From: Bacteroidia bacterium
GTDB taxonomy: Bacteria; Bacteroidota; Bacteroidia; Cytophagales; Cyclobacteriaceae
Length of the DNA stretch: 64,000 nt
Assembly: GCA_030425425.1 (NCBI GenBank)
Contig: JAUIAO010000001.1
Coordinates: 62,001 to 126,000 of the forward strand
Reading direction: 5' to 3'
This document shows, in pieces, positions 21,499-26,709 of the stretch. The notes beneath the pieces are model-generated. The model was given only the letters and a program-made list of their open reading frames with translations, did no database searches and was not told where the DNA came from. Position 1 is the first letter of the stretch. The number at the start of each line of letters is the position of its first letter. Position numbers and translations under genes: made by a program.

Positions 21499-21680
21499 GT
21501 TAAAACTGATATGAATCGCAGGTTAGGGTTGTAGGAGTCGCAGAAGGGGGTGAGAGGTGGTGCAGGAGGAGATTTTCGTACCGTCATTTGCTTTGAAAGG
21601 TATACGGCGGTATATTGAAATCAAATAGATAACAGAATGAAGGTTTATGAAGAATTCTGTTTTGAGAAAAAATAACCAAA

Positions 21681-21754
21681 AGTGTAATACTGATTATGTG
21701 TAACAGCAGTTACACAATAACGCAAGTGTTACACTATAACGAATGTTATGGGGC
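21681..21754 (+). other. Left boundary of cassette array: hairpin-rich site ending in core GTTATGGGGC
   Basis: GTGTAAC-AGCA-GTTACAC hairpin nested in AGTGTAATAC...GTGTTACACT; GTT at 21745. Confidence 0.5.
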
Positions 21755-21789
21755 ATCTGTGCAACTATTAAGAACTTGCCAATTAGAAT

Positions 21790-22719
21790 ATGGACAGCAG
21801 TAAAAAATTTTCACCAGCATCTATAACTGCATTGAAAGAGGCTCTGATTAACATCTATTGGAAGAAACAAGACCTCAAGAACTTTGTCAAACTGAGCATT
21901 GAAAACGACTCAATAATCAATACTATTAATTGGGAATTCAATCGAAAATTTGAGAGCGTCAATGAGTTAGTTGACCGAATGGTCGCAAGGAAGGACATTT
22001 ATTATGACGACCTAATAAGACTGATATATGATGTTTCAAATTTTGAAGATTTCTCGCACTTGAAAATATGGGAAGACTCAGATGAAAAAATAAAGAAAGC
22101 AAAAGACTCAGTCACTCGTTTGCGACAATTTGCTCACGGGTATTTCAAGATTGAAGAAGAAAAAAAGGAGCTAGAAAAGAAACGAAAGAAAGCTCAAGAA
22201 CAACTCGAATCATTCAAAAGAAGCCAGGAACAAATAGAAACTCTAAAAACTGAGTTTTTCCAAATAGCTGTTGAAACCAATGCTCAGAAGAGGGGACGAC
22301 TTCTTGAACCGTTTCTCAATCAACTTTTTACTCTTTTTGATCTCGAACCAAAGAAATCATTCCAACTTAAAGATGAGCAAATTGATGGTGCATTCACATT
22401 TGAAGGTAATGACTATCTCGTTGAAGCCAAATGGCAAAAAGAACCAGTTGAAACAGGCGACTTGAAGAAATTTGCAGGAACACTTAGTGATAAACTTAAA
22501 AACACTTTAGGTCTATTTATCTCGATTGACGGTTTTTCATCTGGATCTAAAGAATTTACAGGGTCGAACGCTCGATCTATGATTTTAATGGATGGCATGG
22601 ATTTAAACTTTGTATTAGATCAAAGAATTGATTTGCATCATCTACTATTCCGGAAAAGGCGACACGCTGCTGAAACTGGAACTATCTATTATCCAGTAAC
22701 TGAAATATTGAAGGATTAA
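21790..22719 (+). CDS. Restriction endonuclease-like protein (PD-(D/E)XK nuclease C-term, helical/coiled-coil N-term), cassette 1 cargo
   Basis: RGRLLEPFLNQLFTLFDL...DEQIDGAFTFEGNDYLVEAKWQ nuclease core (E, D, ExK). Confidence 0.8.
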   Translation: MDSSKKFSPASITALKEALINIYWKKQDLKNFVKLSIENDSIINTINWEFNRKFESVNELVDRMVARKDIYYDDLIRLIYDVSNFEDFSHLKIWEDSDEKIKKAKDSVTRLRQFAHGYFKIEEEKKELEKKRKKAQEQLESFKRSQEQIETLKTEFFQIAVETNAQKRGRLLEPFLNQLFTLFDLEPKKSFQLKDEQIDGAFTFEGNDYLVEAKWQKEPVETGDLKKFAGTLSDKLKNTLGLFISIDGFSSGSKEFTGSNARSMILMDGMDLNFVLDQRIDLHHLLFRKRRHAAETGTIYYPVTEILKD

Positions 22720-22720
22720 A

Positions 22721-22887
22721 GCCCCATAACATTTGCTATGAATGAATGGGGTTTCATCGGTTAGGATAGTTTTGTGGGGATTGGAAAGTCCGCCACAAGT
22801 TTTAAATTTAAATCAAGGCGTGGCTATGTGCGAGACGAGAGGTTAGTGTTTTCTAATCCCCACTCATCATAGCTAGGCGTTAGTAGC
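22721..22887 (+). other. attC-like recombination site 1
   Basis: R'' GCCCCATAAC; spacer ATTT; L'' GCTATGA[A]TGAATGGGG pairs with CCCCACTCATCATAGC; spacer TAGGC; R' GTTAGTA. Confidence 0.8.
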
Positions 22888-22898
22888 AATTCCCCATA

Positions 22899-23450
22899 TT
22901 GCATATGATTGATGAACTTGATATTGAGGCAACTCTAAGAACCCGAAAACTGGTCGAACCCAAACGCAAATTTTGGGATGTTGTAACCTTCGCAATGCTC
23001 TCCCTTCTACCAATAATCTTATTCACCCTTGTAAATACTCATCAATTTCAACAAGAGATAACTTTTTGGCGAATACTATGGATCATCTACTTGAACGGAA
23101 TTGTCGGATTACTAGTTTACCTTCTAATAAAAGGGTATCAGAACGTTAAAGCTCTTGACAAGATCGGTGAATTTGAGAATTTGGAGAACGCCAAATCCAA
23201 AGCCTTTAACATCATTTCCGAACTTGGTTGGCAATTGAGGATCAATCAAGAAAACTATTTAAGAGCTTGGGCCTGGAACAATCTTGGACAATCTCAGATG
23301 GTTACTCTAGTTTTCACACAGACGAACGAACTCCTGATCAATAGCCTTAGTGACGACTCTGGCGCATTTCAACGTCTCAGATTTGGGTTTTCATACGGAT
23401 CGAACAGAGAGAATGTAGAGGATTTTTCAACCAAGTGGAACGCAGAATAA
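22899..23450 (+). CDS. Hypothetical membrane protein with two TM segments (cassette 2 cargo)
   Basis: ORF with TTG 22899 or ATG 22905 start, about 20 bp after core site GTT. Confidence 0.7.
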   Translation: MHMIDELDIEATLRTRKLVEPKRKFWDVVTFAMLSLLPIILFTLVNTHQFQQEITFWRILWIIYLNGIVGLLVYLLIKGYQNVKALDKIGEFENLENAKSKAFNIISELGWQLRINQENYLRAWAWNNLGQSQMVTLVFTQTNELLINSLSDDSGAFQRLRFGFSYGSNRENVEDFSTKWNAE

Positions 23451-23454
23451 AAAG

Positions 23455-23693
23455 CTACTAACAAGCGATGATGGCGCATGGCCTTACTTAGCAGTCTACC
23501 AAGAGTCTGCTAAACATCCCGCTTATCTGCCGCCAAGGAAGTGAAGTGCTTTCTACTTTCTTTCGCTAGTGGGAGTTTATTATCTTCATGGCGCACTGCG
23601 TATCTGATGCTTTGAATGCACCGGCAGATAAGCTACTTTTATTGCAATTAATTAAGCTCGGAGGCCACAGCGCCATATCTGGGCGTTATAGGC
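23455..23693 (+). other. attC-like recombination site 2
   Basis: R'' GCTACTAAC; spacer AAGC; L'' GAT[G]ATGGCGC pairs with GCGCCATATC; spacer TGGGC; R' GTTATAG; long structured middle. Confidence 0.8.
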
Positions 23694-23713
23694 AATAGGA
23701 GTTACTCAATAAT

Positions 23714-24751
23714 TTGAAGCCAGTTTACAAATACAGATCGGGGGACAAAGAAACATTTGAACGTGATCTTAAATCTATAAGAAAGAATCACTTCTGGTCC
23801 GCCAGCATAGATTCATTAAATGATCCCTGTGAGGCCTTCATTTCAACTCAGAACTTCCAAATTCAACTTGGACTTATTATTAAGATTTTCAACAGGAAAT
23901 TAGATAAATCTGCAAGCGACGAGGTAGTTAATGCATTAAACAATGTCATTGAACGAAGAAAAGTCATTGGCATTTATTCCCTGTCACAAACCTACAACCA
24001 CGAGCTTCTTTGGGCACATTATGCTAACTCACATAAAGGCTTTTGTATCGAATATGACTTGGACTTACTTCTTACTACGAATAAGATGGATAAAATCTAT
24101 TCATTTCCCATTAAGTATTCGAACAAAATACCACAAGTTGACATATCAGATATTTCGGGTAAAGGTGGACTACCAATAATTCAAAAACTCGCTGGAACCA
24201 AATCAAAAAGTTGGTCTTATGAAGAAGAATTCCGACTAATAACTGATCAATCAGGCTCGTTTCAATATAACCATCGTGCAATTACGGCCATTTATTTTGG
24301 ATTGAGAATGGAGCAGGATAAAAGAGACCTAATCATGAATGAATTAGCTGGCAGAGGAATTTCCTTCTATCAAATCATTCAAATCGAAGGTACTTACAGA
24401 TTTGAAAGGGAGTTAATTGAAGACGGGGCTCAAAACGAAGTAACCTATTTGACTCAAATTCCAAGTACCAATAAGTCGATCAAACCAATCAAATTCGAAA
24501 TCCGAACTCGGAACTACACGAAGTTTTCAAAATTAGGTGAGGTAACTATTGATTTAGAAGAACCCATTAACAAAGATCAACTCCTTGAGATTGGCACTTA
24601 CATAAAATCAGAACTCTTTTATGAAGCTCAAAAGGTGTTAATGTGGTATTACTTACCAAACCAAAAAGATGACTTTGCACCTTGGGCATTAACCAACTTT
24701 GAAAAAGGTGAATTTGAGGTGAAGATAAACGACTTCATTGAACTTGAATAA
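23714..24751 (+). CDS. DUF2971 family protein (cassette 3 cargo)
   Basis: YKYRSGDKETFERDLKSIRKNHFWSASIDSLNDPCEAF, LLWAHYANSHKGFCIEYD, SYEEEFRLI; TTG start. Confidence 0.8.
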   Translation: MKPVYKYRSGDKETFERDLKSIRKNHFWSASIDSLNDPCEAFISTQNFQIQLGLIIKIFNRKLDKSASDEVVNALNNVIERRKVIGIYSLSQTYNHELLWAHYANSHKGFCIEYDLDLLLTTNKMDKIYSFPIKYSNKIPQVDISDISGKGGLPIIQKLAGTKSKSWSYEEEFRLITDQSGSFQYNHRAITAIYFGLRMEQDKRDLIMNELAGRGISFYQIIQIEGTYRFERELIEDGAQNEVTYLTQIPSTNKSIKPIKFEIRTRNYTKFSKLGEVTIDLEEPINKDQLLEIGTYIKSELFYEAQKVLMWYYLPNQKDDFAPWALTNFEKGEFEVKINDFIELE

Positions 24752-24763
24752 CTGCCTATCTGC

Positions 24764-24819
24764 CAAGGTTTGTGTCCTCACAAAACTTGCAATGGTTTCG
24801 ATTAGTGAGGACACTAATC
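24764..24819. repeat. Inverted pair of REP-like hairpins (BIME-like)
   Basis: CAAGGTTTGTG-TCCT-CACAAAACTTG and GATTAGTG-AGGA-CACTAATC. Confidence 0.75.
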
Positions 24820-24884
24820 AAGGCGAAAGTTGCTTTTTTCTTTCTGGTTTTAGACTTTCAAAACCTATCTGCGGCATGTTTGCC

Positions 24885-24909
24885 TCCGTTGGTGTTTTTC
24901 ACCAACGGA
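24885..24909. repeat. Perfect 10-bp stem hairpin
   Basis: TCCGTTGGTG-TTTTT-CACCAACGGA. Confidence 0.8.
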
Positions 24910-25104
24910 CTAGATGACGTGAGAAGGGTACACTAACAGGCTTAAAGTTCCTTCAAGGCTTTATGCCAGCGAAAGCATCTATTCGACAATTAATTACTTT
25001 CATTTCACGTGCACCATTCCCACAGTTCCGAACTTTGTGATACTTTAGCCTGCTAAAATGAAAGTGCTGTAAATGACGCTTTCTGAACGGTTAATCAGGT
25101 CACT

Positions 25105-26190
25105 ATGAAAAGGAAAATCAGTATCATTTTTGGTGGAAAATCTGCAGAACATGAAGTCTCTCTCAATTCGGCTTCTAATATCTTCAATGCAGTAGATCTG
25201 GAGAGATTTGATCCGCTGTTGCTTGGAGTTGATAAGGCCGGACAGTGGTGCTACAATCCAGATTATCCTTCTGAGCATATTGACCTGAGAAAGCTTGATT
25301 ATTATCCAAATTCCAGACCTGTAACACTCAGGAATAGACATGGCCAGATAAATATCATTGATCAGGAATCAAATAAGGTTTTAGACAATTTTGAAGTGGC
25401 TTTTTCTATCATTCATGGCACGTTTGGAGAGGATGGAGTCATCCAGGGCTTTTTCAAATCTCAGGATATTCCATTTGTAGGGCCGGATGTTTTGGGTTCT
25501 TCCATTTGCATGGACAAGGACATTACTAAAAGACTCCTTAGAGATAGTGGAATCCCTATTGCGGATTTTATTACTGTTTATAGGGAAAATCAAGCGGACA
25601 TCAACTATGAGGAAGCAAAGAACCAATTAGGATTACCACTTTTTATCAAACCATGTAATGCCGGTTCGTCAGTTGGAGTATCCAAAGTGACTGACGAAGG
25701 TTCTTTCCAACAGGCTTTGTCAGAAGCATTTAGATTCGATCGGAAAGTGCTGATTGAAGAAGCAATCGTCGGGCAAGAGCTTGAGTGTGCAGTGCTTGGA
25801 AATGAAAATCCACAGCCTTCTATTATTGGTGAGATTGCTGCAACAAAGGAGTTCTATACCTATGATGCCAAATATGTGGATGCCGATGGTGCTAAATTGA
25901 TCATACCAGCGCGGATTGAAGAAAACGATTCAGATAAATTGAGAAAAGGAGCAGTAGCAGCATATAAAGCCACTTGCTGTGAGGGCTTAGCTCGGGTTGA
26001 TTTTTTCCTTCGCTCTGATGGATCTTATGTTGTCAATGAAATCAACACCATTCCCGGCTTTACGGAGATCAGTATGTATCCTAAGCTGTGGGAACAAACG
26101 GGTATTTCATATTCTGATTTGATCACAAAATTGATCGATCTTGCCGTAGAGCGTCACGAAAGAAATAGCCGATTTGAAACGATGATGTAA
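25105..26190 (+). CDS. ddl: D-alanine--D-alanine ligase
   Basis: FGGKSAEHEVSLNSA, IKPCNAGSSVGVSKV, VVNEINTIPGFTEISMYPKLWE. Confidence 0.97.
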   Translation: MKRKISIIFGGKSAEHEVSLNSASNIFNAVDLERFDPLLLGVDKAGQWCYNPDYPSEHIDLRKLDYYPNSRPVTLRNRHGQINIIDQESNKVLDNFEVAFSIIHGTFGEDGVIQGFFKSQDIPFVGPDVLGSSICMDKDITKRLLRDSGIPIADFITVYRENQADINYEEAKNQLGLPLFIKPCNAGSSVGVSKVTDEGSFQQALSEAFRFDRKVLIEEAIVGQELECAVLGNENPQPSIIGEIAATKEFYTYDAKYVDADGAKLIIPARIEENDSDKLRKGAVAAYKATCCEGLARVDFFLRSDGSYVVNEINTIPGFTEISMYPKLWEQTGISYSDLITKLIDLAVERHERNSRFETMM

Positions 26191-26203: not shown

Positions 26204-26470
26204 TCAGTCATAACGCGTCCACATTCTAATCACCTTAACAGTTTTTTCATCTTCAAGTACTTGATATACTAATCTATGTTGAATATTAATTCTTCTGGAA
26301 TATGCCCCATCAAGATCACCTATTAGTTTTTCGAAAGGAGGGTATTCTGAGAATGGTTCATTCTCAATAAGATTCAATAGTTCCTGGATTTTTGGTTTTA
26401 TTCCGGAAGAGGCTGCTTTTTTGGCATCTTTTTGTGCCTGTTTGGTAAATCGGAGCTGATATTTGCTCAT
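26204..26470 (-). CDS. yoeB: Txe/YoeB family toxin
   Basis: EPFSEYPPFEKLIGDLDGAYSRRINIQHRLVYQV...VKVIRMWTRYD. Confidence 0.92.
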   Translation of the reverse strand: MSKYQLRFTKQAQKDAKKAASSGIKPKIQELLNLIENEPFSEYPPFEKLIGDLDGAYSRRINIQHRLVYQVLEDEKTVKVIRMWTRYD

Positions 26471-26709
26471 CAGTGCAGAGTCGCAGATGTTTCAGAAATT
26501 GTTGTTTCCAACCCCTCTCTAATCGATTCTCGCATTCCGGGTATAGAAAGTAAATACAATGTTTCTTGAATCGCATTCCAATCTGCTTCACTCACCAAAA
26601 CGGCATTGTTTCGTTTTCCCGAAATCTGAATGGGTTGATGTGTTTCAGCTGTTTCATCTACTATCTTGTAAATGTCCTTTCTCGCTTCCGTAATACTAAG
26701 TGATTTCAT
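26470..26709 (-). CDS. yefM: YefM/Phd family antitoxin
   Basis: MKSLSITEARKDIYKIVDE...QISGKRNNAVLVSEADWNAIQETLYLLSIPGM. Confidence 0.92.
   Translation of the reverse strand: MKSLSITEARKDIYKIVDETAETHQPIQISGKRNNAVLVSEADWNAIQETLYLLSIPGMRESIREGLETTISETSATLH

Follow-up and report, generated by a model that had tools for sequence, protein, structure and literature searches.

Clusters of attC sites without integron integrases have been named CALINs (IntegronFinder, PMC9024848). The case discussed here is a 64,000-nucleotide stretch of a Bacteroidia draft genome (5.85 Mb in 121 contigs, 99% complete), referred to below as the window (G000:C119:62001-126000). An initial annotation of the window described a CALIN-like array of integron-type cassettes. 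Comparison with the rest of the genome and with other Bacteroidia indicates that the window very probably holds a portion of an integron-type cassette system served by an integrase other than IntI. A search of the open-licence literature found no earlier description of such a system, an absence that counts as weak evidence.

The array in the window

Between positions 21746 and 24759, the window contains two complete integron-type cassettes and a third that lacks its attC (Table 1). The GTT cores reported at 21745, 22879 and 23685 were verified in base and coordinate, as was the complementarity of the leads of cassettes 1 and 2 to their own R'' elements. Three forward-strand ORFs do start just after the cores, at distances of 45 bp (ATG 21790), 29 bp (ATG 22908) and 29 bp (TTG 23714) rather than the 19-43 bp first given. 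The attC of cassette 1 folds canonically in its circular form, with an L''/L' match of 7 bp.

Table 1. Elements of the window array and of related loci; positions without a prefix are those of the window.
Feature	Location	Strand	Details
Array leader, attI-like, no integrase	21679..21745	+	hairpin region GTGTAAC..GTTACAC, then ATAACGAATG|TT
Cassette 1, G|TT to G|TT	21746..22879	+	lead GTTATGGGGC complementary to R'' GCCCCATAAC at 22721-22730
Cassette 1 ORF, 309 aa, Mrr-type restriction endonuclease domain	21790..22719	+	Pfam Mrr_cat 1.9e-8; PADLOC mREase_IV 9.4e-5
attC1, ~168 bp	22721..22888	+	R'' GCCCCATAAC, L'' TTTGCTATGA, L' TCATAGCTA, R' GCGTTAGTAGC
Cassette 2, G|TT to G|TT	22880..23685	+	lead GTTAGTAGC complementary to R'' GCTACTAAC at 23455-23463
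Cassette 2 ORF, 180 aa	22908..23450	+	no family match in Pfam and PADLOC searches
attC2, ~240 bp	23455..23693	+	belongs to the principal attC family of the genome
Cassette 3, attC lost at R''	23686..24759	+	98% copy at C114:7270-8344(-)
Cassette 3 ORF, 345 aa, DUF2971; candidate defence family PDC-S31	23714..24751	+	Pfam DUF2971 1.6e-10; PADLOC PDC-S31 159 bits
Stretch with two dispersed genome repeats, in the expected place of attC3	24762..24934	+	tens of matches elsewhere in the genome
C91 recombinase	G000:C91:2104-2985 (L002:1195-2076)		
Treble-clef-like neighbour gene, examples	L074:6069-6461, L072:3061-3459		
IS91-linked recombinases directly before transposase genes	L119:8733-9542, L126, L128, L129, L130, L120:7673-8587		

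The complementary pairs exist, but as evidence the R'' rule had been given more weight than it can bear, for inside the window the pairs do not exceed chance. Of the GTT leads on the plus strand of the 64-kb window, 12 are matched within 1.5 kb by a complement of 9 bp or more, compared with 7.9 expected from Markov controls. A chained pair like that of the window arose in 21 of 100 such controls, and once on the window's own minus strand. Because links of this kind are within chance expectation inside the window, sequence outside it had to decide.

Cassette 3 stops at 24759 within its own R'', reading TGCCTAT|CTG in place of TGCCTAT|AAC, and its attC is therefore lost from the window. Adjoining the truncated end are short hairpin repeats (24762-24829 and 24879-24934) present in tens of copies in the genome. 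The array is also adjoined by ddl (25105-26190). Searches of five further species of the genus gave no close orthologue of this gene, only weak matches in reading frames of some 890 aa. The gap between ddl and the gene that follows it lies outside the array and holds a small two-gene operon resembling a RelE/YefM toxin-antitoxin pair (26204-26709). An Rfam scan of the window returned one tRNA and nothing else. In G002-G005, the interval behind addB holds a different gene and no cassettes, and no empty site was shown at the predicted cut points; the window leader was not found in other species of the genus.

Copies of the array elements elsewhere in the genome

Evidence on the cut points comes from cassette 3 (window 23685-24759). 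Its copy on contig C114 is 98% identical, with identity beginning at the predicted G|TT behind a different left neighbour and running into an intact R'' (TGCCTATAAC) and attC. Cassette 3 is therefore present in two contexts and cut where the initial annotation had placed the boundary. A leader resembling that of the window stands before the C114 copy, and a DNA search of the genome found an 83% copy of the window leader at C86:36582-36650, stopping at the core of a different cassette that has a perfect 10-bp R''. Extra matches to the leader pattern on C73 and C88 were rejected as chance. In another genome, G033, one cassette occurs behind five differing left neighbours, each time from G|TT. 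Such copies in differing contexts point to G|TT as the site of recombination.

Both attC sites have relatives outside the window. A profile search for the attC2 family recovered 12 sites in this genome (five on C11, two each on C114, C113 and C93, and that of the window itself), and the R'' rule is satisfied in the arrays around them. In G004 and G005, both of the window's genus, the first attC to follow the recombinase is likewise related to attC2. attC1 was found by a profile built solely from attCs of a different genus (G033, L131; E 4.5e-19), which matched nothing else among the own-genome loci searched. The attC sites of the window thus fall in families of recombinase-headed arrays, which supports the description as integron-type cassettes.

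Arrays headed by a tyrosine recombinase

Contig C119 carries no Xer- or IntI-like recombinase by profile search, and the report of a window without integrase was correct. Nor does any gene in the whole genome reach the IntI cut-off; matches to TIGR02249 are sub-threshold and Xer-like only. What the genome does have is at least two arrays directly behind a non-IntI tyrosine recombinase, plus further array loci. On C91, a 293-aa recombinase is followed, about 55 bp after the stop codon, by a leader ending TTAATG|TT and then a cassette. C11 opens with the 3' end of a recombinase gene identical to that of C91, followed by the same leader, another cassette and five attC sites, and on C10 a second recombinase type (286-299 aa) is followed after about 50 bp by a linked cassette. 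The assembly breaks at such places because of repeats. The C91 recombinase carries a five-residue insertion (GPTIR) in box II and may as a result be inactive; the C10 copy looks intact. Since the predicted fold of the C91 protein is poor around the insertion, the C10 copy was used for fold comparison, and among its top matches the highest TM-score, 0.75, belonged to VchIntIA (2a3v).

An array-type recombinase was found in 32 of the 61 genomes searched. Across the Bacteroidia, as in this genome, the array begins about 45-250 bp behind the tyrosine recombinase. At most loci with enough sequence there is a first G|TT whose lead recurs as a 9-13 bp complement, and in most recombinase-headed arrays a leader hairpin lies just before this G|TT. 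The R''-linked chains behind the recombinase reach 14 cassettes in G033, nine in G035, six in G006, and five in G004 (the same genus as the window genome), with chain scores of 14-47 compared with 0-7 in shuffles; G005 and G030 both have chains of four. Among genome_contigs loci with more than 4 kb downstream, at least two chained cassettes are present in 14 of 22 and at least three in 11 of 22; shuffles give two or more in 1.6%. The genome_contigs loci include Algoriphagus, Belliella, Aquiflexum, Winogradskyella, Aequorivita, Runella, Arcicella, Paludibacter and others, and 36 of the 80 genome_contigs stretches stop within 600 bp of the recombinase. In the longer chains of L240, L244 and L253, some members appear to be spuriously linked, and no conclusion rests on them. 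No array was found behind the wider-clade recombinases L103, L104, L105 and L109. One sequence, L183 (PBTY01000032.1), matches G003 of the window's genus in length and sequence, yet was deposited as a Rickettsiales MAG, a label that looks wrong.

These chains were detected by the same R'' rule that they support; tests of L boxes, ORFs and cassette copies are independent of it. The longest ORF is forward in 70 of 76 chained cassettes, starting at a median of 30 bp past G|TT and stopping at a median of 15 bp ahead of the R'' end. The cassettes are thus mostly single-ORF units in one orientation, as integron cassettes are, and their attCs have an R'' complementary to the lead of the same cassette, another integron trait. 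Within any one array the attC sites differ little in length: they measure 125 bp in G035, about 163 bp in G033, about 131 bp in many arrays and 233-240 bp in the window's genus. In the circular form, the bottom strand of the attC folds so that a 9-10 bp R box is followed by an unpaired spacer of about 4, and then by an L box and an inner arm. The L boxes played no part in site selection, and the mean L''/L' run is 7.4 bp with the site's own partner compared with 4.1 bp with partners from other genomes; runs of at least 7 bp occur in 60% of own pairs and 3% of mismatched pairs. L''/L' pairing is therefore kept in structure while its sequence varies, again as in integrons.

The array recombinases are not IntI

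The array recombinases align with XerA/XerD and IntI across the catalytic domain, in which R, K, HxxR, H and Y are kept and invariant. Missing from them is the insert of about 45 residues that constitutes the IntI additional domain; positions ~180-240 of TIGR02249 are unmatched. With TIGR02249, whose cut-off is 265 bits, they reach 194-205 bits, which is below or near what they score with the XerA model. In the tree, IntI forms its own clade (support 100/100) and the array-linked recombinases fall in another, supported at 97/94 with 31 rows and at 85/92 with 36 rows; between the possible orders of IntI, the array-linked clade and the IS91-linked clade, the AU test did not discriminate (p 0.12 to 0.41). 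The XerC/XerD genes of this genome lie elsewhere in it and belong to a different clade from the array recombinases.

Of 250 genomes from the phylum, 73 have a true IntI, but only one of these 73 belongs to the window's class. When 19 genomes from the recombinase set were checked, IntI exceeded the cut-off in one, G030, alongside its array. The additional domain of IntI is credited to Messier and Roy (2001). The domain serves for selection in published integron surveys (PMC2426708, PMC9668308), which would therefore hide the array recombinase clade. In IntegronFinder 2, the complete integron named for Bacteroidetes proper is that of Salinibacter ruber (PMC9024848). Judged by its sequences, the system described here would work like an integron, yet it falls outside the strict definition, since the additional domain of IntI was looked for and is absent.

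At more than 50 loci, the recombinase is preceded by a divergently oriented gene whose product has about 130 aa. The protein begins with a CxxC...CxxxC motif and has a weak likeness to the treble clef DUF2116. Its gene is a paralogue of one found elsewhere in many genomes, and in a tree the unlinked copies, with few exceptions, group in a single clade (96/98) separate from almost every linked copy; row L302, marked as unlinked, does have a recombinase at the contig end. Many array recombinases themselves carry one or two additional N-terminal domains of about 80 residues each. Those of L116, L215 and L228 have two, the second of which is weakly HARP-like (SMARCAL1-type); the likeness to HARP, seen in one subclade, has E values of 0.0006-0.003, which fall short of the Pfam threshold, and a profile search of solved structures found no match to the N-terminal domain. 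More speculatively, the treble-clef-like protein and the extra N-terminal domains may help to recognise folded DNA.

Formation of the window array

Most probably the recombinase would, as IntI does, bind the folded single-stranded bottom strand of attC, cut between G and TT, and join the cassette to the leader (the candidate attI) or to another attC. The window array is probably an outlier locus that has a leader and no recombinase, was filled in trans and was later truncated at its 3' end; the recombinases of C10, C91 or C11 are the candidates for having filled it.

The window array could instead be a classical CALIN, its cassettes the work of a true IntI that has since disappeared or resides on another replicon, with the tyrosine recombinase beside other arrays as a bystander. 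The window does lack a recombinase, the attC architecture is classical, and a true IntI is found in G030 and in classes of the phylum other than this one. Even so we regard this as improbable: a recombinase stands immediately before the first cassette at dozens of loci in many genera, IntI is almost absent from the Bacteroidia, and the window's attC families match those of recombinase-headed arrays. The term CALIN-like is thus apt locally, in that no integrase lies beside the array; a decayed classical integron is not the best reading, because arrays lie behind a non-IntI recombinase in this genome and across the class. Still less plausible, indeed very unlikely, is that the recombinase is a mobile element that lands at arrays and does not move cassettes. 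It has relatives in its superfamily directly before IS91-type transposases, but the array recombinase heads the chain, with a conserved leader, rather than sitting inside it, and the divergent neighbour gene is co-conserved with it. That the complementarity arose by chance around ordinary ORFs can be set aside almost entirely, for although the links are within chance in the window alone, it is refuted by the 98% copy of cassette 3, with its boundary at G|TT, and by attC models made independently, which together establish the window array as real.

There remains the broader standing of the non-IntI cassette system that we favour. We would give roughly even odds that it is a separate integron class, old and common in Bacteroidia, in which recombination on folded single-stranded sites arose, or has been kept, in the absence of the IntI additional domain, the N-terminal HARP-like or related domain and the divergent treble-clef protein taking over recognition; such a class may show a pre-IntI state. 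Both the definition of integrons and the search for them rely on IntI with its additional domain, and a system of gene capture that is widespread may have gone unnoticed. If a recombinase lacking the domain performs the same task in a major environmental class, the reservoir and traffic of gene cassettes, which here include candidate defence genes, would have been undercounted. The claimed necessity of the additional domain for folded-site recombination would become directly testable, and the origin of integrons could be approached with a comparison clade.

Relation to known systems

The arrays share with IntI integrons oriented single-ORF cassettes, a G|TT boundary, an R'' complementary to the cassette's own lead, a folded attC of R-spacer-L design and a tyrosine recombinase at the head of the array. 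They differ in that the recombinase lacks the additional domain, falls outside the IntI clade and reads towards the cassettes, in the leader hairpin just before G|TT, and in the divergent treble-clef-like neighbour gene and the often present extra N-terminal domains.

Like a CALIN, the window array has attC sites and no integrase alongside. Unlike one, it belongs to a genome that has recombinase-headed arrays of the same attC family, and the absence of IntI is general to the class rather than a matter of local decay. IntegronFinder asks of a CALIN at least two attC hits with its own model and no nearby IntI; the window array has two attC sites, of which attC2, at about 240 bp, would exceed the default length limit.

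Xer recombinases act on dif. By HMM score, XerA and XerC-XerD (NF040815; PDB 5hxy, 4a8e) are the family closest to the array recombinases, and they too have no IntI insert; the array clade differs in being linked to cassette arrays and in ending in an SPLD tail common to IntI. Nor do the arrays belong with the Xer/dif modules (pdif), which have dif-like sites at their flanks and depend on XerC/D, since the array boundaries are G|TT with a folded attC. The IS91-linked tyrosine recombinases of Bacteroidota are of the same superfamily and similar in length and tail. Unlike the array recombinases, however, they are followed by an IS91-type transposase and no cassettes, and they form a separate branch.
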